From Planosporangium flavigriseum (GTDB lineage Bacteria; Actinomycetota; Actinomycetes; Mycobacteriales; Micromonosporaceae), in NCBI RefSeq assembly GCF_011947225.1, contig NZ_JAATVW010000028.1:1-46318 (forward strand): a stretch of DNA of 46,318 nucleotides, given 5' to 3'. Both the position numbers and the translations under genes were made by a program. The notes under the pieces are model-generated. The model made no database searches. It saw only the letters and a list, made by a program, of their open reading frames with translations, and was not told the origin of the DNA. How positions within the stretch are numbered: the first letter of the stretch is position 1; each line of letters starts with the position of its first letter. Below, in pieces: positions 3,607-46,137 of this stretch.

Positions 3607-4875
3607 ATGAGCAGTAACCGGGTGGGACTTGGCACTTCGCTGTGGAGCGCGCAGGCGCATATGCCTTCGGTGCTCGACAGCCGGGTCACGCTCGTGGCCG
3701 GCGACGGTGCGTACCTCACCACGTCCGACGGGGCCAGGCTGCTCGACGCGACCGCGGGTCTCTGGCATGCGAACGTCGGCCACGGCCGTGAGTCGATCGC
3801 CCGGGCAGCGTATGAGCAGATGTGCCGGCTGGAGACCTACCACGTCTTCGGGCGCTTCGCGAACGAGCCGGCCCTGCAGCTCGCGGACCGGGTCACGGCG
3901 ATGGGTCCCATCCCCGACGCCAAGGTCTTCTGGACCAGCGGTGGCTCCGACGCGGTCGACCTCGCCTGCAAGCTGGCTCGCCGGCACTGGCAGCTGGAGA
4001 ACCGGCCGGACAAGCGCATCATCCTGAGCCGCGCCAACGCTTACCACGGTCTGCACGGCTTCGGCACCAGCATCGCGGGGCTCGAGTACAACCGGGACGG
4101 GTACGGCTCCGACTCGCTCATCCCGGAAACGGCCCGGATTCCCACCAACGACCTGGCCGGCGTCGCTGCCGTCATCGCCGAGCTGGGCCCGGAGCGCATC
4201 GCCGCGATCGTCGCGGAGCCGGTCATGGGCACCGGTGGCGTCATCCCGCCGGAGCCGGGCTACCTCGACGGCCTGCAGCGGCTCGCCCGCGCCAACGACA
4301 TCCTCTTCATCGTCGACGAGGTGATCACCGGCTTCGGCCGTACCGGCGTGATGTTCGCCAGTGAGCGCTTCGGGCTCCAGCCCGACATGGTGCTGATGGC
4401 CAAGGGAATCACCTCCGGCTACGCGCCGCTCGGCGGCGTGCTCATCGCGCCCGCCGTCTGGGGACGCTTCTTCGCCGACGCGGACGCGCCCATGTTCCGG
4501 CACGGCCTTACGTACTCCGGCCACGCGACCGCGTGTGCCGTCGCGGCCACGAACCTCGACATCCTCGAGCAGGAGGGGCTCGTGGAGCGGGCCGCTGAGC
4601 TCGAAGGGGTCCTCGCCCGGGCCGTCAAGCCGCTGGCCGATCACGAGCTCGTGGCGGACGTGCGGAGCGCCGGATTCATGGCCGGTGTGCAGTTGCTGCC
4701 GGAGGTGCCGGGGGAGGCGATCGCCGACGCGTGCATCGCGGGCGGTGTCGTGATGCGGGCCATCAACAACAACACGCTGCAGATCTGCCCGCCCTTCGTC
4801 GTGACCGACGAGGAGGTGTCGCGAATCGCGGCAACGATCCAGGACGCGCTCGACGGCTTCGCGAGCCGGCGATGA
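3607..4875 (+). CDS. Class III omega-aminotransferase (omega-amino acid/amine:pyruvate type)
   Basis: A PLP enzyme of 422 residues that moves a terminal amino group from an omega-amino acid or amine to an acceptor, usually pyruvate. The cofactor-binding Asp237 lies in FIVDEVITGFGRTG and the Schiff-base Lys266 in LMAKGITSGY. A YHG motif near residue 143 and the GLTYSGH segment are typical of the family. The start ATG 3607 follows GGAGGAG. The downstream alanine dehydrogenase would recycle alanine to pyruvate, so a pyruvate-dependent reaction fits. Substrate candidates are beta-alanine, GABA, taurine or a diamine-derived compound; the sequence alone does not choose. It is the first gene of the long catabolic series. 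Confidence 0.9.
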   Translation: MSSNRVGLGTSLWSAQAHMPSVLDSRVTLVAGDGAYLTTSDGARLLDATAGLWHANVGHGRESIARAAYEQMCRLETYHVFGRFANEPALQLADRVTAMGPIPDAKVFWTSGGSDAVDLACKLARRHWQLENRPDKRIILSRANAYHGLHGFGTSIAGLEYNRDGYGSDSLIPETARIPTNDLAGVAAVIAELGPERIAAIVAEPVMGTGGVIPPEPGYLDGLQRLARANDILFIVDEVITGFGRTGVMFASERFGLQPDMVLMAKGITSGYAPLGGVLIAPAVWGRFFADADAPMFRHGLTYSGHATACAVAATNLDILEQEGLVERAAELEGVLARAVKPLADHELVADVRSAGFMAGVQLLPEVPGEAIADACIAGGVVMRAINNNTLQICPPFVVTDEEVSRIAATIQDALDGFASRR

Positions 4876-5002: not shown

Positions 5003-6094
5003 ATGCGGGTAGGCGTGGTAGCCGAGATCAAGCCGGCGGAGCGGCGGGTCGGGCTCACTCCGGCCGGCGCGGCCGCGCTGGTGGCGGACGGGCACGACGT
5101 GCTCGTGCAAACCGGTGCCGGCGTCGGTGCGGGCTTCGGCGACGAGGACTATCTGCGGGCGGGGGCCCGAATTGTCAGTGTCGACCAGGCCTGGGGCGAC
5201 AGCGAACTGCTTGTGAAGGTCAAGGAGCCGATCGCGGCGGAGTACGGGTACCTGCGGTCCGACCTGACCCTGTTCACCTACCTGCACCTGGCCGCCGACC
5301 GGCCGCTGACCGAGGCGCTCATGGCCGCCAAGACGACGGCGATCGCGTACGAGACGGTGCGCGACGAGTCCGGGGCGCTGCCATTGCTCGCGCCCATGAG
5401 CGAGGTGGCGGGCAGACTCGCCGCGCAGGCCGCCGCCCACCACCTCCAGCACCCCTTCGGCGGCCCCGGTCTCCTGATCGGAGGCGTGCCCGGGGTGCCG
5501 CCCGCGCGCGTCGTGGTCATCGGCGGCGGCGTCGTCGGTACGCAGGCGGCGCTGGTCGCTGTCGGGATGCAGGCGGACGTCACGATCCTCGATTCGTCGC
5601 CACGGCGGTTGCGGCAGCTCGACGAGTTCTTCGGTCCGCGCGCCCAGGTCGTCATGTCGGACCCGCTGGCGCTGGAAGAGGCCATTGTGGACGCCGACGT
5701 CCTGATCGGCGCGGTGCTCGTGCCCGGGGCGGCGGCCCCCAAACTGGTGCGGGCGGACCACCTGCCGTCGCTCAAGCCCGCGGCGGTCCTGGTCGACGTC
5801 GCTATCGACCAGGGCGGCTGCTTCGAGACGTCCCGCCCGACCACGTACCTCGACCCGACGTACCGGGTGGCCGGGATCCTGCACTACTGCGTCGCCAACA
5901 TGCCCGGTGCCGTGCCGCGCACCTCGACCCGCGCGCTGACCAACGCCACCCTTCCCTACGTCAGGAAGTTGGCCGGGCTCGGCCCCGACCTGGCGCTGGC
6001 GGGCGACGAGGCGCTGCAGGCGGGCCTCAATGTGCGCGACGGTCTTGTCCGGCACGCCGGCGTCGCGACGGCTTTCCCGGACTTGGCCAGTTGA
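5003..6094 (+). CDS. ald: Alanine dehydrogenase
   Basis: Catalyses reversible NAD-dependent deamination of L-alanine to pyruvate and ammonia in the cytoplasm. It has 363 residues, close to the usual 370. Substrate-binding Lys74 lies in KVKEP, catalytic His95 in YLHLAAD, the Rossmann glycine motif GGGVVG near 175, and catalytic Asp269 in VAIDQGG. The SRPTT and CVANMPG segments are hallmark. The start ATG 5003 follows GGGGGAGAG. Next to the omega-aminotransferase it would regenerate the pyruvate acceptor and release nitrogen as ammonia. Confidence 0.94.
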
Positions 6095-6751: not shown

Positions 6752-7870
6752 GTGAAGAACAACATGTCAGCGCGGCGCCGGGCGGGGGCTGGCCTCGCCG
6801 CTGCCGCCGCTGCCGCGGTGCTGCTGTTAACGGCTGCCTGCGGCGGAAAGACCTCGGCCGGAGCGGGGTCGGGTTCGAGCAAGAGTGAGGACAAGGGCCC
6901 GCTCGTCGTGGCCAGCTGGGGATCGACCACGACGGAGTCGATGCGCAAGTACCTCGCCGAGCCCTTCACCAAAGAGACCGGCATCGAGATCAAGATCGTC
7001 GACGCGCCCGGGAAGTACGCGGCGGGCGTGCAGTCCCAGTCGCGCGCGGGGAAGATCCAGTGGGACATCCTCGACGCCGCGTCGGCGCCGGACGCCTACG
7101 CCCTCCACGCCCAGGGGCTCCTCGAGCCGCTGCCGGCCGACCTCAAGCAAAAGCTGTCGAAGATCCTGGTCGACGGCGCCGTGAAGGACTTCGGCTACAG
7201 CTACTCCGCGCTCGGCTACATCGTCGGCTGCCAGGAGCAGCGGGTGGCGAGCTGCCCCGACGCCCAGCAGTACTTCGACGCGAAGGCGTATCCGGGGCGG
7301 CGGCAGATGATCGCGACCTCGCCGATGGTCAACCTCAGCCTCGCCGAGCTGGCCAACGGTGTCGCTCCGAAGGACCTCGGGACGCACGAGATCAACATGG
7401 ACCGCGCCTTCGCCAAGCTCAAGGAGCTCAAGCCCGACGTCAAGGTCTGGTGGCAGTCGTCGGACCAGTCCCAGCAGACCATCCGCAACGGCGAGGTCGA
7501 CCTGGGGATCCTGTACAGCGGCCGCATTTACCTGCTCAAGGAGCAGGGCACGCCGGTCAAGCCGGTGTGGAAGGGCGGGCTCTACAACCCCGGCTACATG
7601 GCCGTGGTGAAGGGGTCGCAGCACAAGGACGCCGCGTTCCGGTTCCTGCAGTGGATCGCGGAGCACCCGGAGGCCCAGGCCGGCTGGGCGTCGGGCACCC
7701 GCAACTCGGTGCCCAACCCCAAGTCGTTCGACACCATGACGCCGCAGCTGCGGGAGTCGTTGGCGGACTGGCCGGCTAACCGCGAGGTGCTCGCGAACAT
7801 CAACTACGACTGGTACGTCAAGAACCTCGACGAGGTCAACAGGCGCTGGCAGGAGTTCCTGCGCGGGTAA
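6752..7870 (+). CDS. Substrate-binding lipoprotein of a spermidine/putrescine-type ABC importer
   Basis: The extracytoplasmic receptor of the ABC importer. The start is GTG 6752, 6 nt after GGAGG. The first 30 residues form a lipoprotein signal: positively charged MSARRR, a hydrophobic Ala/Leu core and the lipobox LTAAC with Cys30 as the lipid anchor. The mature part (about 340 residues) resembles family 1 / PotD-type binding proteins (polyamines, iron, aminoethylphosphonate). Segments such as VVASWG near the N-terminus and YNPGYMAVVKGSQHKDAA near the C-terminus fit. It is followed by two permeases and an ATPase in tight linkage. The ligand is unknown; an amine or amino-carboxylate used by the neighbouring enzymes is the natural inference. 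Confidence 0.88.
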   Translation: MKNNMSARRRAGAGLAAAAAAAVLLLTAACGGKTSAGAGSGSSKSEDKGPLVVASWGSTTTESMRKYLAEPFTKETGIEIKIVDAPGKYAAGVQSQSRAGKIQWDILDAASAPDAYALHAQGLLEPLPADLKQKLSKILVDGAVKDFGYSYSALGYIVGCQEQRVASCPDAQQYFDAKAYPGRRQMIATSPMVNLSLAELANGVAPKDLGTHEINMDRAFAKLKELKPDVKVWWQSSDQSQQTIRNGEVDLGILYSGRIYLLKEQGTPVKPVWKGGLYNPGYMAVVKGSQHKDAAFRFLQWIAEHPEAQAGWASGTRNSVPNPKSFDTMTPQLRESLADWPANREVLANINYDWYVKNLDEVNRRWQEFLRG

Positions 7871-8800: not shown

Positions 8801-9600
8801 CCACCAGATCCGGCAAGGTTGGCGACCGGCTGTTCTCGTTGGCCGGGCGCGTGGGCGCGGTGGTGGCCTTCACGTTCATGGCGGCGCCCGCCCTGTTCAT
8901 CGTGGTGCTGTCGTTCTCCAACGACAAGTTCATCGGCTTCCCGCCGAAGACCTGGGGGCTGGACCGGTACACGTCGGTGTTCACGTCCGGGACCTGGCTG
9001 GACCCGATCTCGCTGTCGCTCCAGGTGGCCGCGCTGGCCGCGCTCCTCGCGCTGGTGCTGGTCGTGCCGGCGGTCCTCGGCATGAAGCGGGGCATGCTCC
9101 CGGGGGCGGGCCTCATCGAGGCGACGGCGATCGCGCCGATGCTCTTCCCGATCGCCGCCTACGCCGTCGCGATGTACGCCGTGTTCGCCGAAGCGGGTCT
9201 GATCGGAACGTTCCACGGGATCGTGCTGTCGCATGCGATCCACGCCGTGCCGCTCGTGGTCATCGTCTTGAGCACCGCCCTGGACCGGGTACGACCCGAG
9301 CTCGAGCTGGCGGCCATGACGATGGGCGCGAGCCGGGCCCGTGCCTGGGTCGGAATCACGCTTCGTCTCCTCACGCCGGCGGTGCTCGGCGGGGCGACGC
9401 TCGCGTTCGTGAGCAGCTTCGACGAAGCCGTGTTCATCACGTTCCTCGGCGGACCGGGGCTCGTGACCCTACCCAAGATGATTTTCGACTCGGTCCAGTA
9501 CGGCGTCGACCCCAGCATCACCGCGATCGCGACGATCCTCATGGTCGTCACCGCCGGTCTGATGCTGGGCGCCACTCAACTGCGGAAGGATGTCCGATGA
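8797..9600 (+). CDS. ABC importer permease (PotC-like)
   Basis: The second permease subunit, 267 residues. It starts at GTG 8797, which overlaps the preceding TGA in GTGA; an open frame extends further upstream but lies inside the PotB-like gene. Hydrophobic segments appear at about 20-45, 70-90, 105-130, 145-165, 195-215 and 235-260. The EAA-type loop is MTMGASRARAWVGITLRLLTP. The typical LSFSNDKFIGFP periplasmic start of PotC-like proteins is visible. The stop overlaps the ATPase start as ATGA. Confidence 0.9.
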   Translation: MTTRSGKVGDRLFSLAGRVGAVVAFTFMAAPALFIVVLSFSNDKFIGFPPKTWGLDRYTSVFTSGTWLDPISLSLQVAALAALLALVLVVPAVLGMKRGMLPGAGLIEATAIAPMLFPIAAYAVAMYAVFAEAGLIGTFHGIVLSHAIHAVPLVVIVLSTALDRVRPELELAAMTMGASRARAWVGITLRLLTPAVLGGATLAFVSSFDEAVFITFLGGPGLVTLPKMIFDSVQYGVDPSITAIATILMVVTAGLMLGATQLRKDVR

Positions 9601-10706
9601 CCACCGTGGCCGGCGTTGAGCGCGGTACCCAGCCCACCCCGGACGGCGCGAGATCCGTCGCGCTGCACGTTCGCTCCATCCGCAAGTCCTTCGCCAACCA
9701 GGAGGTGCTGCGGGGCATCGACCTGGACGTGCACGAGGGCGAGTTCCTGACGCTGCTCGGCCCGAGCGGATCGGGAAAGACGACGCTGCTGCGCATCATC
9801 GCGGGCTTCGAGAGCCACGACAGCGGTGAGATGCGGTTGCAGGGAAACGACATCTCCCGGCTCAGCCCCGCCCAGCGGGACCTGGGCATGGTGTTCCAGC
9901 AGTACGCGCTCTTCCCGCACATGACGGTCGCCGACAACGTCGCGTACGGGCTCAAGATGCGCCGGTGGGACAGCGCGAAGCTGCGCGCGCGGGTGGAGCA
10001 GATGCTCGAGATGGTCGGCCTGCCGCACCTGGCCGACCGCAAGCCCAGGCAGCTGTCCGGCGGGCAGCAGCAGCGGGTCGCGCTGGCGCGCGCGTTGGCG
10101 TACGAGCCCAAGCTTCTGCTGATGGACGAGCCGCTCGGTGCGCTGGACAAGAACCTGCGGCTGCAGATGGAGGAGGAGCTGCGGCGCGTCCACCGGCAGC
10201 TGGGGACGACCGTCATCTACGTGACCCACGACCAGGAGGAGGCGCTCGCCCTCTCCGACCGGATCGCCGTCATGCAGGAAGGCCGGTTTGCCGGCCTGGA
10301 CACGCCCACCGCTCTCTACCAGCGGCCCCCGTCGACCTTCGTCGCGCGGTTCTTCTCCAACGCCAACCTCATTCCGGCCACGGCGTCGAGTGACCCCGGA
10401 TCGGAGGGCGCCGTCGTCGAGGTGGGCGACTGCCGGTTCCCTGCCGCAACCGACCTGCGCGGCGACGTCATGCTCGCGGTCCGACCCCGCAGCCTCCGTC
10501 CGGAGACTGTCGCGGACGGGCTCACGATTCACGGCACGGTCATCGACTCCCTGCTGATGGGCGACGACCGCCAGGTGCGGCTCGAGGCCGCGGGTGTCGG
10601 ACCGGTCGTCGCCCGGATCAGCGCCGCGCAGCCGGGCGAGTTCGAGCCCGGCGCCACGGTCACGCTGTCCGCCGCGTCGCATGACATCACCGTGCTGGCG
10701 CCGTAG
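9597..10706 (+). CDS. ABC importer ATPase (PotA-like)
   Basis: A cytoplasmic ATPase of 369 residues that powers the importer. Walker A GPSGSGKT lies near residue 55, a Q-loop at VFQQYALFPHM, signature LSGGQQQRVALARAL, Walker B LLLMDEP and the switch His in YVTHDQEEA. The C-terminal third (about 270-369) is a TOBE-type beta domain typical of PotA/MalK-like importers. ATG 9597 overlaps the previous stop by 4 nt. A 48-nt gap with GGGGAGAGG leads to the monooxygenase gene. Confidence 0.93.
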   Translation: MTTVAGVERGTQPTPDGARSVALHVRSIRKSFANQEVLRGIDLDVHEGEFLTLLGPSGSGKTTLLRIIAGFESHDSGEMRLQGNDISRLSPAQRDLGMVFQQYALFPHMTVADNVAYGLKMRRWDSAKLRARVEQMLEMVGLPHLADRKPRQLSGGQQQRVALARALAYEPKLLLMDEPLGALDKNLRLQMEEELRRVHRQLGTTVIYVTHDQEEALALSDRIAVMQEGRFAGLDTPTALYQRPPSTFVARFFSNANLIPATASSDPGSEGAVVEVGDCRFPAATDLRGDVMLAVRPRSLRPETVADGLTIHGTVIDSLLMGDDRQVRLEAAGVGPVVARISAAQPGEFEPGATVTLSAASHDITVLAP

Positions 10707-36927: not shown

Positions 36928-38442
36928 ATGAGCAACCCTGGCCGGGGTGTCCGGGTCACCCGGTGGACCGTCAATCCGCTCCTACGTCATGATCACATCT
37001 GGCGCGCGGAGCAGAACCTGGTGGCTAGCTACGGCGACGGCCGTCGAGGCGTTCTCATCGAGCTCAACCTCTCCGCCGGGGTTGAACCCGACGAGGTTTT
37101 CACCCGGTTCCTGGAGGGCTACCGGGCGCGGCTGCCCGACGCGCAGCCGCCCGAACGGCTCTCGGCCATGTACGCGCGGGCGGTGCTCGACCGCGAGCAG
37201 TTGCAGCGCCTGGTCGGCACCGACCAGGGCACCACCCCGCTTCCTCCGCTGCTACCGTTCGTGGTCCGGATCTGGCCCGACTACGTGGTCGAAGCCCACG
37301 TCGACCACTCGATCTCCACGGTGAAGGCGGACGCCGCCAACCGCACCTACGGCGCCGCCGGAGCCGGCATCGCGTGGGGCGTGGCCGACAGCGGCATCTG
37401 CCGCGACCACCCGCACTTCGCCGGCGGGACCCTGACCGACCCTGCCGTGATGGCGCTGCACCGTGACTTCACCTACCTGGTGCGGGGCGATCCGCCGCCG
37501 CCCAAGTTCGACCCGGCCGACGCGCTGGTCGACCTGAGCGGGCACGGTACCCACGTGGCAGGGATCATCGCCGGGGCTGCCCCGGCCGCGGCGGTGCCAC
37601 ACATCGCCTGCCAGCAGTGGACACCCCACGCCGGCGACCAGGACCTGGTCGAGTGGACCACGCGGACGCTCGAGCCCAGCCGTACGCTCTCCGGCATCGC
37701 GCCGCTGGCCCGGCTGGTCAGCCTGCGTGTTCTGCTCGAGGACGAGACGACCACCTCCAGCGCGGTCATCAAGGCCCTCGACTATGTCCGCGAGGTCAAC
37801 GCAGGCGGGAGCAACCTGCGGATCCACGGCGTGAACCTCTCGTTGGGACTCGTCTACCAGCCGCAGGAGTACGCTGCCGGACGCAGCCCGCTGTGCCGAG
37901 AGGTCAACCTCCTGGTGGGTACCGGCGTGGTCGCGGTGGTGAGCGCCGGCAACAACGGCGCGGCCACCGCCGACCCGTTCGCTGGCGGCGACCCCCGCGC
38001 GTCGCTGGCCACCATCACCGATCCCGGCAACGCCGACCGGGCGATCACCGTGGGCAGTACCCACCGCGACAGCCCACACACCCACGGCGTCAGCTTCTTC
38101 TCCTCCAAGGGGCCCACCCTGGACGGGCGGCCCAAACCCGACCTGGTCGCGCCCGGGGAGCGGATCACCTCCGCCGCGGTCGCGCATTTCCGTACCCGCA
38201 GCCGGGACCTGGCCCGGTTCACCGACGCGGACCCCTGCTACATCGAGGAGTCCGGCACCTCGCAGGCGGCCCCGCACGTGTCGGGCGCGATCGCCGCGTT
38301 CCTGTCCGCCCGCCCCGAGTTCACAGGGCAACCGGACTGGATCAAGAAGCGTTTCTGCGACAACGCCACCTCGCTGGGCCGGCACCAGTTCTTCGAAGGC
38401 GCCGGTCTGCTCGACCTCATGCGCGTGCTGTCCAACGTCTAG
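36928..38442 (+). CDS. S8 family serine peptidase (subtilase)
   Basis: A 504-residue subtilisin-like protease. The catalytic triad is Asp154 in VADSGIC, His206 in SGHGTHVAG and Ser445 in GTSQAAPHVSG, with the oxyanion Asn in SAGNNGAA. The first 130 residues form a domain before the catalytic core (containing RVTRWTVNPLLRHDH). No signal peptide or membrane helix is visible, suggesting an intracellular protease or non-classical export. I chose ATG 36928; the frame is open from 36628 but overlaps the antisense remnant. The ribosome site (TGGAG) is modest. The next gene, 16 bp on, encodes an alpha/beta hydrolase, so the two are probably a functional pair. Confidence 0.9.
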   Translation: MSNPGRGVRVTRWTVNPLLRHDHIWRAEQNLVASYGDGRRGVLIELNLSAGVEPDEVFTRFLEGYRARLPDAQPPERLSAMYARAVLDREQLQRLVGTDQGTTPLPPLLPFVVRIWPDYVVEAHVDHSISTVKADAANRTYGAAGAGIAWGVADSGICRDHPHFAGGTLTDPAVMALHRDFTYLVRGDPPPPKFDPADALVDLSGHGTHVAGIIAGAAPAAAVPHIACQQWTPHAGDQDLVEWTTRTLEPSRTLSGIAPLARLVSLRVLLEDETTTSSAVIKALDYVREVNAGGSNLRIHGVNLSLGLVYQPQEYAAGRSPLCREVNLLVGTGVVAVVSAGNNGAATADPFAGGDPRASLATITDPGNADRAITVGSTHRDSPHTHGVSFFSSKGPTLDGRPKPDLVAPGERITSAAVAHFRTRSRDLARFTDADPCYIEESGTSQAAPHVSGAIAAFLSARPEFTGQPDWIKKRFCDNATSLGRHQFFEGAGLLDLMRVLSNV

Positions 38443-38458
38443 CCGATCGGAGCGCACC

Positions 38459-39754
38459 ATGGGCAACGATGGTCAGAGAATCGGTGGTCTGTCCTCCTAC
38501 GAACTTGAGTTCACCGAAGGCGGCTCCCTGGTACGCGACACCGGACTCCGGGGCGCGGTCACCACCGGCGAGTTCGACGACGTCTTCGTGTTCTCCCACG
38601 GCTGGAACAACGGCACCGACTCGGCGCGGCGCCTCTACGGCACCATGTTCGACCTCCTCGGCGCCGGTCTCGCCCGCCATGCGCCGGACAAGACCGCCCG
38701 CACCGCGGTCGTCGGTATCTTCTGGCCGTCCCTGCTCTTCCCGGAAGACGATCCGACCACCGGGCGGCCGGCTTCCGCTCCCCGATCCTCCGGCGCCGAG
38801 CTGGCCACCGCGTTGAAGCCGGCGTTCCCCGGTAACGAGGACAACCTGGCGCGGATCGGCGAACTCCTCGACGGCAAGGGCGGCAGTGACCAACTCGTCG
38901 AGTTCCACGAACGCGCGAAGCGGCTGGTGACCACCCCGAACCTCGACGCGGGCGAGGACTCGGGGGAGCGGGCCGCCGTCGAGCTACCGACCGGTGCCGT
39001 CATCACGTACTACTCGGGCTGGCCGCACGCCGATGGCCGGGCGGCGGAAGGACTGCTCGACCCCGTCGAGGGTCTGTGGGACGGCGCCCGCGAGGTGCTG
39101 CGCACCCTCAGCTACTACGAGATGAAGAACCGCGCCGGACAGGTGGGGCGCGTTGGACTCGGCCCCTTCCTGTCCACGGTGGCCGCCCCGGATGGGCACC
39201 GTCCCCGCGTACACCTGCTCGGGCACAGCTTCGGCGCCCGGCTCGTGGCGTACGCGTTGTCCGGACTCGCCGACGGTCTGGTCGGTGCCGCGAGCCCGAT
39301 CAAGTCGCTGCTGCTGATCCAGGGTGCGTTCTCCCACTTCTCGTTCAACGACAGGCTGTCGTTCGATCCGGACCGGGGCGGCGCGCTGGCCGGCTACTCC
39401 AACCGGGTCGACGGGCCGCTGCTGTCCACCTTCACCCGGCATGATCGCGCGGTCGGCTGGTGGTATCCGCTGGCCAGCATGCTGAAGCGGCAGGACGCCA
39501 GCAGCCAGGCGGATCTGTTGTACCGCTGGGGCGCGATGGGCGCGGACGGCTACCAAGTGGACGGCACGAGCCGGGTCCCCCTCGGCGACGACGGTTTCCC
39601 GTACGGCTTTGCCTCCGGCAGGTTCTACCGGCTCGACGCCAACTCCGTCATCGACGCCGTCCAGTCGCCGTTCACCGGCGCCCACAGCGACATCTGCCAC
39701 CCGGAGGTGGCCTGGGCAGCCATCGCTGCGGCCGGTCTGGCCAACGGCCGTTAG
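38459..39754 (+). CDS. Alpha/beta hydrolase of unknown substrate, paired with the subtilase
   Basis: A 431-residue protein with a serine-hydrolase core: early FVFSHGWNNGTDSARRLY (oxyanion region), then nucleophile Ser257 in LLGHSFGARLVAYAL. LLLIQGAFSHFSF and SDICHPEVAW near the C-terminus may provide the acid and His. A long insertion between the first strand and the nucleophile (about 75-220), acidic and low in hydrophobic residues, is unlike standard lipases. No signal peptide. Start ATG 38459, 16 bp after the subtilase stop. I cannot assign a substrate; a lipase or esterase role is a guess from the fold. Confidence 0.75.
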   Translation: MGNDGQRIGGLSSYELEFTEGGSLVRDTGLRGAVTTGEFDDVFVFSHGWNNGTDSARRLYGTMFDLLGAGLARHAPDKTARTAVVGIFWPSLLFPEDDPTTGRPASAPRSSGAELATALKPAFPGNEDNLARIGELLDGKGGSDQLVEFHERAKRLVTTPNLDAGEDSGERAAVELPTGAVITYYSGWPHADGRAAEGLLDPVEGLWDGAREVLRTLSYYEMKNRAGQVGRVGLGPFLSTVAAPDGHRPRVHLLGHSFGARLVAYALSGLADGLVGAASPIKSLLLIQGAFSHFSFNDRLSFDPDRGGALAGYSNRVDGPLLSTFTRHDRAVGWWYPLASMLKRQDASSQADLLYRWGAMGADGYQVDGTSRVPLGDDGFPYGFASGRFYRLDANSVIDAVQSPFTGAHSDICHPEVAWAAIAAAGLANGR

Positions 39755-40867: not shown

Positions 40868-41020
40868 ACGAGCCGGCCGTCCCGCGCCGCCGTCCTGGAG
40901 GAGCTCATCGCCTACGTGGTCTCCTGCGACGACGTCTGGGTGGCGCCGCTGGCCGAGGTCGCGGAGTACGTGCGCAGTCTGGGGCTCACCCCGCGATCGG
41001 TGCCGCAGCCGGAGCTGTAA
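40868..41020 (+). pseudogene. C-terminal remnant of a polysaccharide deacetylase
   Basis: In yet another frame, 40868-41020 reads TSRPSRAAVLEELIAYV, then DDVWVAPLAEVAEYVRS and a TAA at 41018-41020. This is the typical C-terminus of NodB-type (PuuE-like) deacetylases: a GRPSR loop, a helix, VWVA, and AEVA-Y. The catalytic domain is absent; the fragment is joined directly to the carbohydrate-binding fragment. The last 35 nt lie antisense to the end of the kinase gene. Confidence 0.65.
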
Positions 41021-41939
41021 CTCGTTCGTCAGACCCCCGGTCGAGGACCGGTCGCAACGGGTCGCGGGTCAGCGCCTTGAGCACGGCCGCGAGTTCGCGC
41101 AGGCTCGGGCGCCGGGCCGGCTCAGGATCGAGGCACGCCTCGACCACGGTCCGAAACTCGGCGGGCAGCGTGCGTCGCCACCGTCGTAACGGCACGGCCG
41201 GGCGTTCCAGCTGAAGATACCGATGGTCCTGCACGGCCGCCTCCTCTTGGGAGTTCAGCGGGGCGAAGGGAGCATCCCCGGACGCCGCCTCGTAGAGCGT
41301 GGTCCCGATTCCCCACACGTCGGTGGCGGTGGTCACCGTCTCGCCGCGCACCTGCTCGGGCGCGAGGTACTCACGGGTTCCGCGGCCCCGAGTGGTCGGT
41401 CCGGGTGGCGCGGCGAGGCTGAGGTCGATGACCTTCGCGATGCCCTGCTGCTCGATGACGTTGGCCGGTTTGAGGTCCAGGTGCAGGTATCCCGTGCCGT
41501 GCAGGTAGTGCATCGCACTGCACAGGTGCAGTCCCAGGTAGGCGAGGTCGACGATGGGCAGTCGACGGGGCGCCATCTCGATGTAGTCCTCGAGCGTCAG
41601 GCCCGGGAACGTCTCGAGGATGACGACCGGGTCCGGCTCGCGGAACACGGCGTAGGCCCGCACGAGGTGCGGGTGGGACATGCGCAGCGCCAGTTCGCCC
41701 TCCCGCAGGAGCCGCGTGCGTACCCGCTCGACCCCTCGGCGGTCCGGGCGGATCACCTTGGCTATGCAACTGCAGAACCGCTCGTAGCTCCACACGTCGT
41801 AGACGTCGAGCGCGTCGCCGCGGCTGATGTGCGCCAGGACTTCGTAGCCGGGTGCGAGCGGGTAGGCCGGTGGGAACGGTGGTTCGCACTCCTCCTCGGG
41901 TGTGGCTTCGCTGACCTCGGTGGCTGGCGCTACGGCCAT
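40986..41939 (-). CDS. Hanks-type Ser/Thr protein kinase with altered catalytic motifs
   Basis: A soluble 317-residue kinase with one catalytic domain (about 33-290) and no transmembrane or sensor domain. ATP-site Lys61 lies in CIAKVIRP, with Glu80 or Glu82 as helix C partner. The catalytic loop is HLDLKPAN (base Asp155, Lys157, Asn160), so HRD has become HLD. The metal-binding motif is IDLS (Asp172) in place of DFG. APE is LAPEQ. The glycine-rich loop is degenerate (ISRGDALDVYDVW). All essential acidic residues and Lys remain, so activity is plausible. It overlaps the ABC exporter gene by 10 nt and is thus co-translated with it. A substrate candidate is the Arg/Ser-repeat peptide encoded at 44004-44147. 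Confidence 0.85.
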   Translation of the reverse strand: MAVAPATEVSEATPEEECEPPFPPAYPLAPGYEVLAHISRGDALDVYDVWSYERFCSCIAKVIRPDRRGVERVRTRLLREGELALRMSHPHLVRAYAVFREPDPVVILETFPGLTLEDYIEMAPRRLPIVDLAYLGLHLCSAMHYLHGTGYLHLDLKPANVIEQQGIAKVIDLSLAAPPGPTTRGRGTREYLAPEQVRGETVTTATDVWGIGTTLYEAASGDAPFAPLNSQEEAAVQDHRYLQLERPAVPLRRWRRTLPAEFRTVVEACLDPEPARRPSLRELAAVLKALTRDPLRPVLDRGSDERVTAPAAAPIAG

Positions 41940-43906
41940 GGGAGCACCGTTCTTCCTTCCGAAGGGTTGGGCAGGGTGGCTGTCGAATGCCCGGCTCCCG
42001 CGAGAGCGGGACTGGTCGGCCCCGCCGCGATACCACGGGTCGGGACCGGCGCGACCCCGGTGAACCGCTGCCGGCGGTGCAGTGCGAGCCCCGATGACCG
42101 GTACAACTGCCGGTAGTGGCCGCCCCGCTTCAACAGTTCGTCGTGGGTGCCCCGCTCCACGATGGCGCCGTGGTCGAGCACCACGATTTCGGTGGCGTCC
42201 CGCGCGAGGAGCAGGTCGTGGGAGATCACGATCGTCGTCCGGCCGGCCATGAGCCGCCGGGCCGGTTCGAGGACCCGCGCGCCGGACTGCGGATCGAGCC
42301 CGGTCGTCGGTTCGTCCATGAGCAGCACCGGCGCGTCGCGGATCATGGCACGGGCGATCGCGATCCGCTGGCGCTGGCCACCGGAGAGGCGCGAACCGCG
42401 CTCGCCGATCCGGGTGTCGTAGCCGTCGGGCATGGCCATGACGAAGTCGTGCGCGTCGGCGGCCCGGGCGGCCGCCTCGATCTCCGCGTCGGTCGCGCCG
42501 GGCCGACCGTACGCGATGTTGTCCCGGATGGTGCCGTCGAAGACGAGGGTCTCTTGGAGCACGACCGCGATGTTCTGGCGCAGGTCGTCGAGGCGGAGAT
42601 CCCGGAGGTCGATACCGTCCACCGTTACCTGCCCGTCGTCGGGGTCGTGGAACCGCAGCAGCAGCCGGGCGATCGTGGACTTGCCGGCGCCGCTGGCGCC
42701 GACCAGCGCGAGGACCTGGCCGGTACCCACCCGCAGGGACACCTTGTCCAGCGCCCGCGTGCTCGTCTCCGGGTAGGTGAAGGACACCTCGTGCAACTCC
42801 ACCACGGACGGTTGGGACGGCAGCTCGCGTGGTGACGGCGGGTCGGTGACGCTCGGACGTTCATCGAGGATCTCGACCAGCCGTTCGGCGCTGGCAGCGG
42901 CGGCGTAGGCGCTGGTCATCAGCCCGTTGATGCCACGGATCGGACCGTACAGCCGGCTGAGCAGGGTAACGAAGACGAGCAGTTCGCCGACGGTGAGGCG
43001 ACCGTGGGACACCTGCCAGGCGCCGTAGCCGATGACGACCAGGGCGCCGATCATCTCCACCCCGTTGATGAGTGGCGAGTACACGCCGCGCAATCGGGCG
43101 TACGACATCTCAGCGCGGTACTTCGCCTCCGCCGCGCGGGTGAAGCGGTTGCTCTCGCGCTCCTGCTGCCCGTAGGCCTGTACCAGGGGAACGTTGCGCA
43201 GCACTTCCTCGACGACGACGCTGATCGATCCTGACCTGCGGCGCGACTCCCGGGAGACCTGTTTGATCCGCCGGCTGAAGAAGCGCGCCACCGCCCAGAA
43301 GACGGGTGCGACGACGAGCGAGACCAGCGCCAGTCGCCAGTCGAGGAGGAACAACATCACCGAGAACACCGCGATGCGCACCGCGTATGCGACGAAGTCG
43401 GCGGCACCGCCGAGAAGGAACGACTCGATGGCGGACACGTCGCTGGTGAGGCGGGATACCAGGTCGCCGAGTCGCCGGCGCTGGAAGAAGTCGATCGAGA
43501 ACGCCTGCAGGTGCCGGAAAACGTGCCCGCGCAGGTCTATGAGAAACCGCTGGCTCAACCAGGTGGAAAGAACGCCGTCGACGAAGCGGAGAACCCCTTG
43601 GATAAGCAGGAAAATAAGGTAGAGCGCCGCGACGCGCGGGAAAACGCCGAAATTTTTCGGGATGAGCATATCGTCGACGACAATTTTGAACAGCCAGACC
43701 TCGCCGGCTTCGATAAACGGCGCGACCGTGCTGATGCCGAGCACGGCCGCCAGGCCGACGGGGCGCCGACGAACGAAAGGCCAGAAGCGACGGAGAATGG
43801 TGCTGATCGGCACCGCGGCCGCTTGCTCGACGTACTCCGCGTCATCGTCGGGGGCGGGTGCCGAAACGGCGCGCCGCTTAGCCGCGTCGGGTCTCAGCAA
43901 GGCCAT
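41930..43906 (-). CDS. ABC exporter, fused membrane and ATPase domains
   Basis: A 658-residue half-exporter of the peptide/lipid/multidrug type. A six-helix membrane domain (about 35-320) is followed by the ATPase (about 370-600): Walker A GASGAGKST, Q-loop VLQETLVFDG, signature LSGGQRQRIAIARAM, Walker B LLMDEPTTG and His switch VISHDLL. There is no N-terminal C39 peptidase domain. A C-terminal tail of about 50 residues, Gly/Pro/Thr-rich, is unusual. The start ATG 43906 has GGTGG upstream; a longer open frame upstream runs through a hairpin and the peptide gene and is rejected. Immediately after a small peptide gene and overlapping a kinase, it probably exports the peptide. Confidence 0.9.
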   Translation of the reverse strand: MALLRPDAAKRRAVSAPAPDDDAEYVEQAAAVPISTILRRFWPFVRRRPVGLAAVLGISTVAPFIEAGEVWLFKIVVDDMLIPKNFGVFPRVAALYLIFLLIQGVLRFVDGVLSTWLSQRFLIDLRGHVFRHLQAFSIDFFQRRRLGDLVSRLTSDVSAIESFLLGGAADFVAYAVRIAVFSVMLFLLDWRLALVSLVVAPVFWAVARFFSRRIKQVSRESRRRSGSISVVVEEVLRNVPLVQAYGQQERESNRFTRAAEAKYRAEMSYARLRGVYSPLINGVEMIGALVVIGYGAWQVSHGRLTVGELLVFVTLLSRLYGPIRGINGLMTSAYAAAASAERLVEILDERPSVTDPPSPRELPSQPSVVELHEVSFTYPETSTRALDKVSLRVGTGQVLALVGASGAGKSTIARLLLRFHDPDDGQVTVDGIDLRDLRLDDLRQNIAVVLQETLVFDGTIRDNIAYGRPGATDAEIEAAARAADAHDFVMAMPDGYDTRIGERGSRLSGGQRQRIAIARAMIRDAPVLLMDEPTTGLDPQSGARVLEPARRLMAGRTTIVISHDLLLARDATEIVVLDHGAIVERGTHDELLKRGGHYRQLYRSSGLALHRRQRFTGVAPVPTRGIAAGPTSPALAGAGHSTATLPNPSEGRTVLPWP

Positions 43907-43949
43907 ACGTCCACCGGAATCCTTCCGTTGCCACGGCCGCCTTTCCCGC

Positions 43950-43996
43950 GCCAGGCGGCAGCGGAACCGCGCGAAGCGGTTCCGCTGCCGCCTGGC
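43950..43996 (-). terminator. Strong stem-loop between peptide gene and exporter gene
   Basis: A perfect 21-bp stem (43950-43970 with 43976-43996) with a 5-nt loop that reads TTCGC on the transcribed strand. It begins 8 nt after the peptide stop codon and ends 44 nt before the exporter start. There is no U-run, so it may be a partial terminator or an RNA-processing/stabilising structure that makes the peptide transcript much more abundant than the exporter. Confidence 0.75.
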
Positions 43997-44003
43997 ACAT
44001 GCC

Positions 44004-44147
44004 TCAGTAGGACCCCGTGTGGCGGGACTGGCTGCGGCTGTGACTGCGGCTGCGGCTGCGGCTGCGGTGGTGGTGCCGGCTGCGGCGTTGGTTGTTGCCA
44101 CAGTTCGAGCTCCCGCCGTAGCTGGGGCTGAGTCCACCGAAACTCAT
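44004..44147 (-). CDS. 47-residue Arg/Ser-repeat peptide, candidate secreted or modified precursor
   Basis: A small gene encoding, in order: a Gly/Ser-rich head (MSFGGLSPSYGGSSNCGNN), then a basic section with RRSRHHHRSRSRSRSHSRSQ and a short end SRHTGSY. It has one Cys (residue 16), a Gly-Gly at 11-12 that could be a processing site, and at least six Arg-Ser/Ser-Arg units. The ribosome binding site (GGGAGGAAATC before ATG 44147) is the strongest in the neighbourhood. A very stable stem-loop follows, then an ABC exporter and a Ser/Thr kinase on the same strand. That is the layout of a small-peptide precursor with its export and modification genes. I do not recognise the family. Other frames here are also low complexity, but none has a comparable start. 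Confidence 0.7.
   Translation of the reverse strand: MSFGGLSPSYGGSSNCGNNQRRSRHHHRSRSRSRSHSRSQSRHTGSY
44026..44076. repeat. Hexanucleotide-type repeat (GCTGCG) within the peptide gene
   Basis: On the plus strand, GCTGCG/GGCTGC units recur with small variations (GTGACT, GTGGTG). On the coding strand this is CGCAGC, encoding Arg-Ser. Because each unit is 6 nt, gain or loss by slippage changes the number of Arg-Ser dipeptides without shifting the frame. Confidence 0.7.
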
Positions 44148-44206
44148 GATTTCCTCCCTCTCGTGATTACCTTGGCGTGTCGATACACCGGGCCATCATT
44201 TAGATA

Positions 44207-44246
44207 CGTCATGAAAGCCCGGATCCGACGCGAATTGTGACGTCAC
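44207..44246 (-). promoter_or_regulatory. Palindrome upstream of the peptide gene
   Basis: GTGACGTCAC (44237-44246) is a perfect 10-bp palindrome about 90 bp upstream of the peptide start, and a related half-site TACGTCATGA lies at about 44204-44213. The 254-bp space between the carboxyltransferase stop and the peptide gene (44148-44401) contains no other gene, so an independent regulated promoter is likely. A clear -35/-10 pair is not evident to me. Confidence 0.4.
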
Positions 44247-44401
44247 CTATCCGCTGGCGCCGGTATTCTTGGTAAGGCTCCGTCCACAAGAGAACCTATG
44301 GGTTGGCAGTGGGGCTCACAACTCGAGGCGTGAAAAAGTTCGGACGCTGCCGTAGGCCGGAGCGGTGATCGAATGCGAGCGGCTGCCGTCCTATTTGGAG
44401 A

Positions 44402-45901
44402 TCAGGTATCTGACGTCAACGTTTCCCGGCCGAGGTTGCGGTACCTTGCGCGCCGCGCGGTCAGGCGGCTGACCGGATCGGTGACCAGGACACTCGCCAG
44501 TTCGTACTCGATGGCCAGCCCCATCCGGTCCAGGAACGACTCCGGCTCCTCGGCGGCATCGGGCAACTCGGGGACGACCCGGTCGACGATGCCGTGCCGC
44601 AGCAGATCGAGCGAGCGTACGCCCTGCGCGGCGGCCACCTCCGGGGCGTGATCGGGTGTGCGGTGGACGATGGCGCTGGCGCCTTCCGGCGGGAGCGGCG
44701 ACACCCAGCCGTGCTGGGCGCAGAGCACCCGGTCCGCCGGCAGCAGGGCGAGCGCGGCGCCGCCGGCCCCCTGCCCGAGCACGACCGACACGGTGGGGGC
44801 GTCGAGGCGTACCAGGTCCAGCAGGCTGTGCGCGATCGCGCTCGCGACGCCCTCTTCCTCCGCCTCCGGAGACAGGGCCGCGCCGGGCGTGTCGATGACG
44901 GTGAGCAGCGGCACGCGCAGTTCGCGGGCCAGCCGCATGCCCCGGCGGCCCACCCGTAGCGCACTTCGAAACAGGGCCGGCCCGCTCCGGTCATGTCCCA
45001 CCACAACGCAGGGGAGGCCGCCGAACGTGGCCAGCGCGAGGACGACGCCTTCGTCGACGTCCCCCTCCAGGCTGCCGTGCAGGTGCACGACGTCCAGCGC
45101 GGTGGCCCGGAGGAGGTCTCGCACCCCCGGCCGGTCGGCGCGCCGGGTCCGCTGGATCGACTCCCACGCGGAGACGTCCGGTACGGATCCGTACGGCGCG
45201 GGCGGCCGGACGCCTACCGGGTGCGGCGCGCACGCGACGTTGAGCACGCGTTCGATCGTCTCCGCGAGCTCCTCGGCGGGTACGACCGCGTCGATCAGCC
45301 CGTGCTTGTGGAGGTTCTCCGCGGACTGGACGCCGTCAGGGGGTGCCTCCCCCCGGATCGCCTCGTACGCCCGTGGGCCGAGGAACCCGATCAGCGCGCC
45401 CGGTTGCGCCAGCGTGACGTGCCCCAGCGAACCCCACGAGGCCAGTACGCCGCCGGTCGTGGGGTGTCGCAGGTACACCAGGTAGGGCAGGCCGGCTGCC
45501 CGATGCGCGGCGACAGCGTCAGTGATTTTGACCATCTGCAGGAACGCGAGGGTGCCCTCCTGCATGCGGGTGCCGCCGGAGGCGGGGGCGACCAGCAGCG
45601 GCAGCGCTTCCCTGGTCGCCCGTTCCATGGCGAGCAGGAGGCGCTCGGCCGTGGCCACCCCGATGGAGCCGCCGAGGAAACCGAAATCCCCAGCGAGCAC
45701 TGCGACTCGCCGGCCGGCGATGCGACCCTCTCCGGTCAGGACCGCCTCGGTCAGGCCGGTTTCCTGCCTCGCCCGGGCGAGCGCCGCCCGGTAATCGTCG
45801 GGCACGTCCGCGAGCGTCGGCTCCGGATCGTCCCAGGGCACCCAGGAGCCGCTGTCGAGTACCTGTTCGATAAACGCACGCGCACCCGGTTCAGACGCCA
45901 C
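44402..45901 (-). CDS. Acetyl-/acyl-CoA carboxylase carboxyltransferase, fused beta-alpha (AccD-AccA type)
   Basis: A 499-residue biotin-dependent carboxyltransferase with two crotonase-fold halves. The N-terminal half (about 1-235; AccD-like) has GDFGFLGGSIGVATAERL, PASGGTRMQEGTLAFLQM and PTTGGVLASWGSLG. The C-terminal half (about 250-490; AccA-like) has RRGMRLARELRVPLLTVIDTPGA and VLGQGAGGAALALLPAD. It lacks the zinc finger of E. coli AccD. No biotin carboxylase or biotin carrier gene is in the window, so it must work with subunits encoded elsewhere. It is on the same strand as the peptide module but 254 bp upstream, so co-transcription is uncertain. Confidence 0.88.
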   Translation of the reverse strand: MASEPGARAFIEQVLDSGSWVPWDDPEPTLADVPDDYRAALARARQETGLTEAVLTGEGRIAGRRVAVLAGDFGFLGGSIGVATAERLLLAMERATREALPLLVAPASGGTRMQEGTLAFLQMVKITDAVAAHRAAGLPYLVYLRHPTTGGVLASWGSLGHVTLAQPGALIGFLGPRAYEAIRGEAPPDGVQSAENLHKHGLIDAVVPAEELAETIERVLNVACAPHPVGVRPPAPYGSVPDVSAWESIQRTRRADRPGVRDLLRATALDVVHLHGSLEGDVDEGVVLALATFGGLPCVVVGHDRSGPALFRSALRVGRRGMRLARELRVPLLTVIDTPGAALSPEAEEEGVASAIAHSLLDLVRLDAPTVSVVLGQGAGGAALALLPADRVLCAQHGWVSPLPPEGASAIVHRTPDHAPEVAAAQGVRSLDLLRHGIVDRVVPELPDAAEEPESFLDRMGLAIEYELASVLVTDPVSRLTARRARYRNLGRETLTSDT

Positions 45902-45910
45902 GGTCGCAGC

Positions 45911-46128
45911 CTACGGTTGCCCCGGTCGGTCCGTGTCCCGGAGGAAGTCGACCGTACGGGTCTCCTCGCCCGGCCAGTGCAGCGTCGTTTCGGCCACCGG
46001 GTTCTCGGCCACGAGGTGACCGTGCGCGACGACGTAGCGCGGCCGCACCTGGCGGCGCAGGATGTCGATCCGGTCGGTAGCTGGGGGCCGCAATGCCGGA
46101 AGGGGTGGCCCGCGTGCACGCGGGCCAC
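45911..46128 (-). pseudogene. 3' remnant of an amidohydrolase (cytosine deaminase-like)
   Basis: The frame ending at 45911 reads RQVRPRYVVAHGHLVAENP followed by about 25 residues and a stop. This resembles the C-terminal beta-sandwich of cytosine deaminase/amidohydrolase proteins (a VRRYVLRGGRVVA-type strand pair). No metal-binding or catalytic part is present. Upstream the frame runs into the palindrome at 46096-46137. The nearest start is a TTG at 46093, without a ribosome site. A deletion scar is the simplest reading. Confidence 0.5.
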
Positions 46129-46137
46129 CCCTTCCGG
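46096..46137. terminator. 42-bp perfect palindrome, flagellin terminator candidate
   Basis: Positions 46096-46116 are the exact reverse complement of 46117-46137, including a central TGCA; as RNA this gives a stem of about 19 bp with a 4-nt loop. It starts 37 nt after the flagellin stop (minus strand), as expected for a terminator of a highly expressed gene. Confidence 0.75.

Follow-up and report, generated by a model that had tools for sequence, protein, structure and literature searches.

A conserved peptide–hairpin–exporter–kinase module of actinobacteria with a peptide predicted to be kinase-modified and exported

A contig of Planosporangium flavigriseum (NZ_JAATVW010000028.1; 46,318 nucleotides (nt), the whole of which is called the window here) carries on its minus strand, in this order, a small peptide open reading frame (ORF), a hairpin, the gene of an ATP-binding cassette (ABC) exporter and the gene of a Hanks-type Ser/Thr kinase, the last two overlapping by 10 nt at 41930-41939 (Table 1). 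We find that this arrangement is a real, conserved module: the three genes, their order, the hairpin and the start of the peptide recur, and selection is seen on the peptide frame of relatives. Given the recurring linkage of peptide, exporter and lone kinase together with the Ser/Thr-rich peptide cores, the best reading, which we consider probable from the sequences at hand, is that of a module resembling those of ribosomally synthesised and post-translationally modified peptides (RiPPs), the product of which would be modified by the kinase and exported. The initial annotation of this DNA had listed the 47-residue gene with its ribosome-binding site, the 21-base-pair (bp) stem-loop, the exporter and the overlapping kinase on one strand, and all are where it placed them. 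It had also proposed that the kinase acts on the peptide and that the exporter secretes or displays the product; the module itself holds, and those two activities are kept here as predictions.

Table 1 Features of the module in P. flavigriseum, in window coordinates
Feature	Coordinates	Strand	Basis
47-residue precursor-like peptide gene	44004-44147	minus	ORF; small peptide gene upstream of exporter in 40/49 kinase loci
Shine-Dalgarno sequence GGGAGG of the peptide gene	44153-44158	minus	sequence; 5 nt ahead of ATG
N-terminal leader-like motif MSFGGLSPS, fitting F-[SG]-x-x-x-P-[AS]	44121-44147	minus	recurrence in relatives' peptides
Arg/Ser/His low-complexity tract, peptide residues 21-43	44019-44087	minus	sequence; L103 and L080 have Arg-Ser cores with different codons
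Perfect 21-bp hairpin with 5-nt loop, separating peptide and exporter genes	43950-43996	minus	
MsbA/ABCB-type ABC exporter	41930-43906	minus	Pfam ABC_membrane and ABC_tran; PDB sequence matches
Single-domain Hanks-type Ser/Thr kinase	40986-41939	minus	Pfam Pkinase; invariant, presumably catalytic residues; AlphaFold2 and Foldseek

The window peptide (MSFGGLSPSYGGSSNCGNNQRRSRHHHRSRSRSRSHSRSQSRHTGSY) has counterparts in position across the 49 kinase-bearing loci that were read, the window included. A small peptide gene is present in 42 of them, giving 47 peptides since five loci have two, with the reservation that the first choice of peptides in the relatives relied on visual inspection and permissive filters (the motif, or a run of basic or of Ser/Thr residues), a procedure biased towards the reading proposed here. 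The initial annotation had named the absence of a syntenic small ORF from relatives as a reason to give up the idea, and the opposite is observed. In 40 of the 49 loci the peptide gene precedes the exporter. The two exceptions are L022, where it directly precedes the kinase with no adjacent exporter, and L109, where, as in none of the other 41 peptide loci, two Trp/His/Arg-rich small ORFs (5739-5876 and 6993-7115) follow the exporter, one on either side of the kinase. Tandem copies occur in L023, L027, L075 and L086. Seven loci are without a peptide (L024, L042, L046, L050, L051, L085 and L106); in five of them (L042, L046, L050, L051 and L085) the contig breaks off at or short of the expected site. 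Where both larger genes were laid out (19 loci), the exporter precedes the kinase on the same strand, and the two overlap in 16, as judged by gene starts from our own gene caller.

The hairpin recurs as well. In the window its best stem, with one mismatch allowed, has 22 pairs, and none of 100 dinucleotide shuffles exceeded 11; a simple terminator scan of 43800-44500 returned no terminator-like site, indicating that it is not a textbook T-tailed terminator. Among relatives, the first 110 nt after the peptide gene were screened for a stem reached by at most 5 of 100 dinucleotide shuffles, and 32 of 38 loci have one. The misses are L022, L028, L100, L102, L103 and L104, while L048, L049 and L083 (gaps too short) and L109 stood outside this test.

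Is the peptide gene real? Of 2618 small starts in 350 kb of sequence from the loci, 27 bear the N-terminal motif; 14 of these 27 have a Shine-Dalgarno sequence, and all 14 are at the module site. A fixed rule (Shine-Dalgarno sequence, loose motif and basic run), defined once the peptides had already been seen, picked out 33 of the 760 Shine-Dalgarno-bearing small ORFs of the 42 loci. Thirty of these are among the 47 listed peptides, two are longer starts of listed ones (hence 32 at the module site) and one lies elsewhere. In 20 control regions, taken from 13 of the genomes, the rule matched none of 415 such ORFs, and a chance ORF is rejected on this ground. Purifying selection on the peptide frame, the absence of which the initial annotation had held to be damaging, is seen in close relatives: 6 of 8 close peptide pairs have more synonymous codon differences than amino-acid changes (9:4, 8:4, 14:6, 13:10, 3:1 and 14:5), the exceptions being L048/L049 (7:12) and L047/L081 (8:13). 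Some of these pairs share a member, and the counts concern the relatives' peptides. None of 11 peptides tested, the window's among them, matches Pfam or NCBIfam, so the module has probably been overlooked in annotation.

The peptides combine a short recurrent start with a variable core. The strict motif F-[SG]-x3-P-[AS] is found in 19 of 47 and the loose form [FL]-x4-[PT]-[AS], near the N terminus, in 34. Poly-Arg is the commonest core type, with an Arg/Lys run of at least six residues in 31 peptides, and these low-complexity cores are often flanked by Asn-Ser or Asn-Thr repeats, as in L043 (MRFSKTSPAVRAKAAGSDSSNSNSGRRRRRRRRRRRRRNRRSSSNS). Arg-Ser cores are found in the window, L103 and L080, Arg-Thr cores in L082, L084, L087 and L104, and poly-Ser cores lacking an Arg run in L076 and L078. 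In 41 of the 47 peptides, 17% or more of the core residues are Ser or Thr; the C-terminal residue is one or the other in 28, net charge lies between +9 and +22 in 40 (the L018, L041 and L100 peptides being near neutral), and only the window's contains Cys. The initial annotation had centred on the Arg-Ser tract as the kinase target. Ser/Thr-rich repeats, Arg-Ser and Arg-Thr included, do recur; Arg-Ser itself proves to be just one core type among several, poly-Arg being more common and six peptides being poor in Ser and Thr.

Whether the Arg-Ser tract is a DNA repeat or a protein feature cannot be read from the window genome alone, since the tract is encoded almost entirely by CGC AGC, and it is the relatives that decide. 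L103 uses mostly AGG TCG and L080 a mixture, indicating that in this group the repeat is a protein-level feature. The Arg tracts of family f32 likewise use both AGR and CGN codons. In L041, the ORF upstream of the exporter (oriented coordinates 4379-4615) encodes an uninterrupted stretch of 18 Arg and, after it, a strongly acidic tail, possibly a self-neutralising variant.

The two larger proteins are of familiar families. The exporter matches Pfam ABC_membrane, ABC_tran and two general AAA models, its nearest PDB entries by sequence are ABCB1, Sav1866, TM0288 and MsbA, and no C39, FHA or other phospho-binding domain was matched in it by Pfam; a peptidase-containing ABC transporter was set aside for want of an N-terminal C39 match. 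The kinase (317 residues) matches Pfam kinase models only (Pkinase, PF00069), and no transmembrane segment was seen by eye. K61, E80, H153, D155, K157, N160 and D172 are invariant in 21 kinase sequences, and we take them to have catalytic roles. Its AlphaFold2 model has a predicted local distance difference test (pLDDT) score of 89, with PknB as the top Foldseek match.

The module is sporadic in the window's class (Actinomycetes) and recurs in distant actinobacteria. At E ≤ 1e-40, a screen of 61 genomes found the kinase in that of the window alone, with no match in its 60 relatives, three of the same genus included; at E ≤ 1e-110 the exporter was found in 2 of 300 genomes of the family, the window's own and G235. 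This rarity near home indicates that the module is accessory in the window's lineage. With the kinase sequence at 1e-38, 13 of 396 genomes of the phylum were hit, the twelve others being eleven in family f32 and one in family f56; kinase matches amount to 11 of 39 genomes in f32 and 12 of 61 in f56. A 21-row kinase profile at 1e-70 had matches in 23 of the 399 genomes searched from the f56 class; in the window's class, 9 of 394 genomes matched, its own genome among them. One contig scan with the kinase gave a lone weak 25% match (L002), and a plasmid search placed the module kinase in two Streptomyces plasmids. The window copy is a sporadic and probably horizontally acquired member. In a 43-row exporter tree, built by a quick short search with L100 and other short matches omitted and with an outgroup that did not form one clade, the window's exporter groups with those of L103 and L104 (Shimodaira-Hasegawa-like approximate likelihood-ratio test, SH-aLRT, 98), two loci with Arg-Ser and Arg-Thr/Ser-Thr repeats in their peptides. 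The g70 loci cluster with the copy on the S. nigrescens plasmid.

Two of these loci deserve a separate word. The G235 exporter (L029, on G235:C19) is 41% identical to the window's and, included as an outgroup, fell on a long branch inside the family. No kinase was matched at 1e-15 within the 19 kb read around it, and directly upstream (oriented coordinates 9505-9612) lies a small basic Lys/Ala/Pro-rich ORF, MAIKILPKKPAAKPAAKKSACTTAKPKATAHKPAR; L029 is a possible kinase-free cousin of the module. On the S. cathayae plasmid (L100, 5846-8857), exporter and kinase matches are each split in two pieces and the copy is apparently broken; its peptide carries no annotation beyond hypothetical protein (WP_279331629.1).

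In part of the family a two-component system adjoins the module. A histidine kinase and a response regulator stand beside it, in varied positions and orientations, in nine of the first loci. A full-length histidine-kinase match lies near the module in 15 of 42 loci (540 kb), a count that includes two query loci and is inflated by kinship among loci. The 20 control regions (360 kb) contain no histidine-kinase match at 1e-15, and two of them have weaker two-component matches (E 2e-9 and above). Among the other peptide-bearing loci of the window's class, only L105 has a two-component match. An acidic ectodomain is confined to f32 (net charge -11 to -30 in six), three f56 ones lying between -4 and +2, and the sensor parts of f32 and f56 are unrelated, so that one common sensed ligand is not supported. 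The presence of such neighbours speaks for a product that is regulated or sensed in some members of the family.

How might such a module work? The Shine-Dalgarno sequence suggests that the peptide gene is strongly translated, and the hairpin behind it may keep peptide mRNA in excess over that of exporter and kinase. The short conserved start would serve as a recognition element, and the lone Hanks kinase would phosphorylate several Ser/Thr residues of the low-complexity core. The resulting peptide would be zwitterionic, with Arg and phospho-Ser, and the polycation thereby tamed in the cytoplasm, after which the ABC exporter may carry it out to act at or beyond the envelope, perhaps in a surface layer, as a signal or as an antimicrobial. 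In lineages with an adjoining two-component system, that system could control or sense the module. Sec-type secretion was rejected, since inspection by eye reveals no hydrophobic signal in the window peptide. L022, where the peptide is kept beside the kinase without an adjacent exporter, counts in favour of a kinase-modified peptide.

Several observations weigh on the other side. Even the loose start motif is absent from 13 of the 47 peptides, and Ser and Thr make up 10% or less of the core in six: L018 (Trp-Asn-Gly), L041, L099, L100 (His-Asp-Gly) and both L109 peptides (Trp/His/Arg). The window peptide is without a close sequence relative, BLASTP giving no alignment even with that of L103, and the window holds no match to a two-component system. 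The kinase lacks the usual GxGxxG loop, having instead a conserved HLHRSxxxDVYDV-like stretch, and its DFG motif is replaced (DLS in the window; DLS, DLN or DLG among the 21 kinases). Finally, no processing protease was identified, no model search having been aimed at proteases.

The strongest rival is that the kinase regulates the exporter and not the peptide, which the exporter would still carry; we regard this as unlikely. It draws on the overlap of the two genes in 16 of 19 loci and on the mycobacterial Rv1747–PknF pair, likewise an ABC exporter and a Ser/Thr kinase in one operon, where according to the excerpted text of PMC3908365 PknF positively modulates Rv1747. Here, the exporter has no FHA or other phospho-binding match, for which reason the Rv1747–PknF type was rejected; the kinase is single-domain, a peptide gene is added, most cores are rich in Ser/Thr, and in L022 the kinase stays beside the peptide with no adjacent exporter.

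Two further explanations are distinctly improbable, and about equally so. Firstly, an Arg-rich ORF followed by a hairpin ahead of an exporter might be a regulatory leader with an inert product, ribosome pausing at Arg codons setting transcription past the hairpin (attenuation). This fits poorly with the conserved N-terminal amino-acid motif, the cores devoid of Arg runs (poly-Ser in L076 and L078, Trp-Asn-Gly in L018), the mixed Arg codon types, the intact tandem copies and the synonymous excess in 6 of 8 pairs. Secondly, Arg/Ser repeats resemble protamines and serine/arginine-rich (SR) proteins, and the high net charge of 40 of the 47 peptides would suit an intracellular nucleic-acid binder regulated by phosphorylation, the exporter being there for another reason; this is difficult to square with linkage to an exporter in 40 of 42 peptide loci and with the near-neutral peptides of L018, L041 and L100. 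That the window ORF is untranslated or decayed and its tract a slipped CGCAGC repeat, as the near-uniform codons and the lack of the kinase from all three same-genus genomes might hint, is very improbable in view of the strong Shine-Dalgarno sequence, motif, hairpin and open exporter and kinase frames, and of the Arg-Ser core in other codons in L103, of the same exporter clade (SH-aLRT 98).

The preferred reading, a kinase-modified and exported peptide, has partial parallels among described systems. Eukaryotic SR proteins and their SRPK kinases join Arg-Ser dipeptide repeats to a Ser/Thr kinase; membership there requires an RNA-binding and an RS domain and an SRPK-group kinase, whereas the peptide here has 47 residues and no Pfam domain and the kinase is nearest PknB among the matches listed. 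Closest in plan are the class IV lanthipeptide system VenA/VenL/VenT/VenH and RamC of the SapB system, with precursor, Ser/Thr kinase activity on it and ABC transporter in one cluster; in the excerpted text of PMC2843593, the VenL kinase domain by itself adds several phosphates to VenA. Unlike VenL and RamC, the present kinase consists of one domain, with neither lyase nor cyclase attached, and the exporter is one MsbA-type protein. A class III/IV lanthipeptide synthetase was rejected, as the LanL model aligned with the 317-residue protein through its kinase region alone and scored 81 bits where the cut-off is 650, as was a lanthionine-ring core, Ser/Thr being present but Cys occurring in a single peptide. 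In phosphorylated lasso peptides, a kinase of the cluster (PadeK, ThcoK, SyanK or PsmK) phosphorylates Ser of a small precursor, as the part of PMC9266682 consulted describes; here the kinase is Hanks-type (PF00069) with a PknB-like fold, which excludes it from the lasso type, and the core is of low complexity. In Bacillus subtilis, CotH, encoded beside the genes of Ser/Lys/Arg repeat proteins, multi-phosphorylates such repeats in CotB and CotG (PMC7821199, in excerpt). CotH is, in contrast, an atypical kinase and CotB and CotG are larger spore-coat proteins; our kinase matched Pkinase PF00069 and no CotH model, and CotH-type membership was dismissed.

The initial annotation knew of no described bacterial system with this layout; VenA/VenL/VenTH, the phosphorylated lasso peptides and CotB/CotG/CotH are partial parallels. 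As its parts come from known families and the modification is itself a prediction, the peptide–modifier–exporter plan is not categorically new. Literature searches for the module and for bacterial SR kinases returned, among the matches listed, no description of it. What we observe is a small precursor beside a candidate modifying enzyme and an exporter, with a conserved start and a variable core, as in RiPP systems. If the predicted modification is right, it would add a kinase-only branch to bacterial peptide-modifying operons, and Arg-Ser repeats as a kinase substrate would have a compact, testable example in bacteria. The hypervariable, low-complexity core behind a recurrent start raises the question of how cores as different as poly-Arg, Arg-Ser, Arg-Thr and poly-Ser could be handled by a single kinase and a single exporter. 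More tentatively, these peptides may represent a new ribosomal class of actinobacteria, exported and multiply phosphorylated Arg-rich polyampholytes with a lone Hanks kinase, a hypervariable low-complexity core and a short leader motif. SR-repeat or silaffin chemistry would then have a counterpart in bacteria, one served by a dedicated exporter and accompanied in many lineages by an adjoining two-component system.

Other features of the window were noted in passing. Upstream of the peptide gene, AccD-like and AccA-like carboxyltransferase halves are joined in a single gene (44402-45901, minus strand). On the plus strand (36928-39754), a subtilase gene (Peptidase_S8) is followed at once by a gene for 431 residues without Pfam match, possibly a pair. 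A perfect 42-bp palindrome, two 21-nt arms with no loop, lies at 46096-46137 beside a partial ORF at the window end, which we presume, without a family search, to be flagellin-like.

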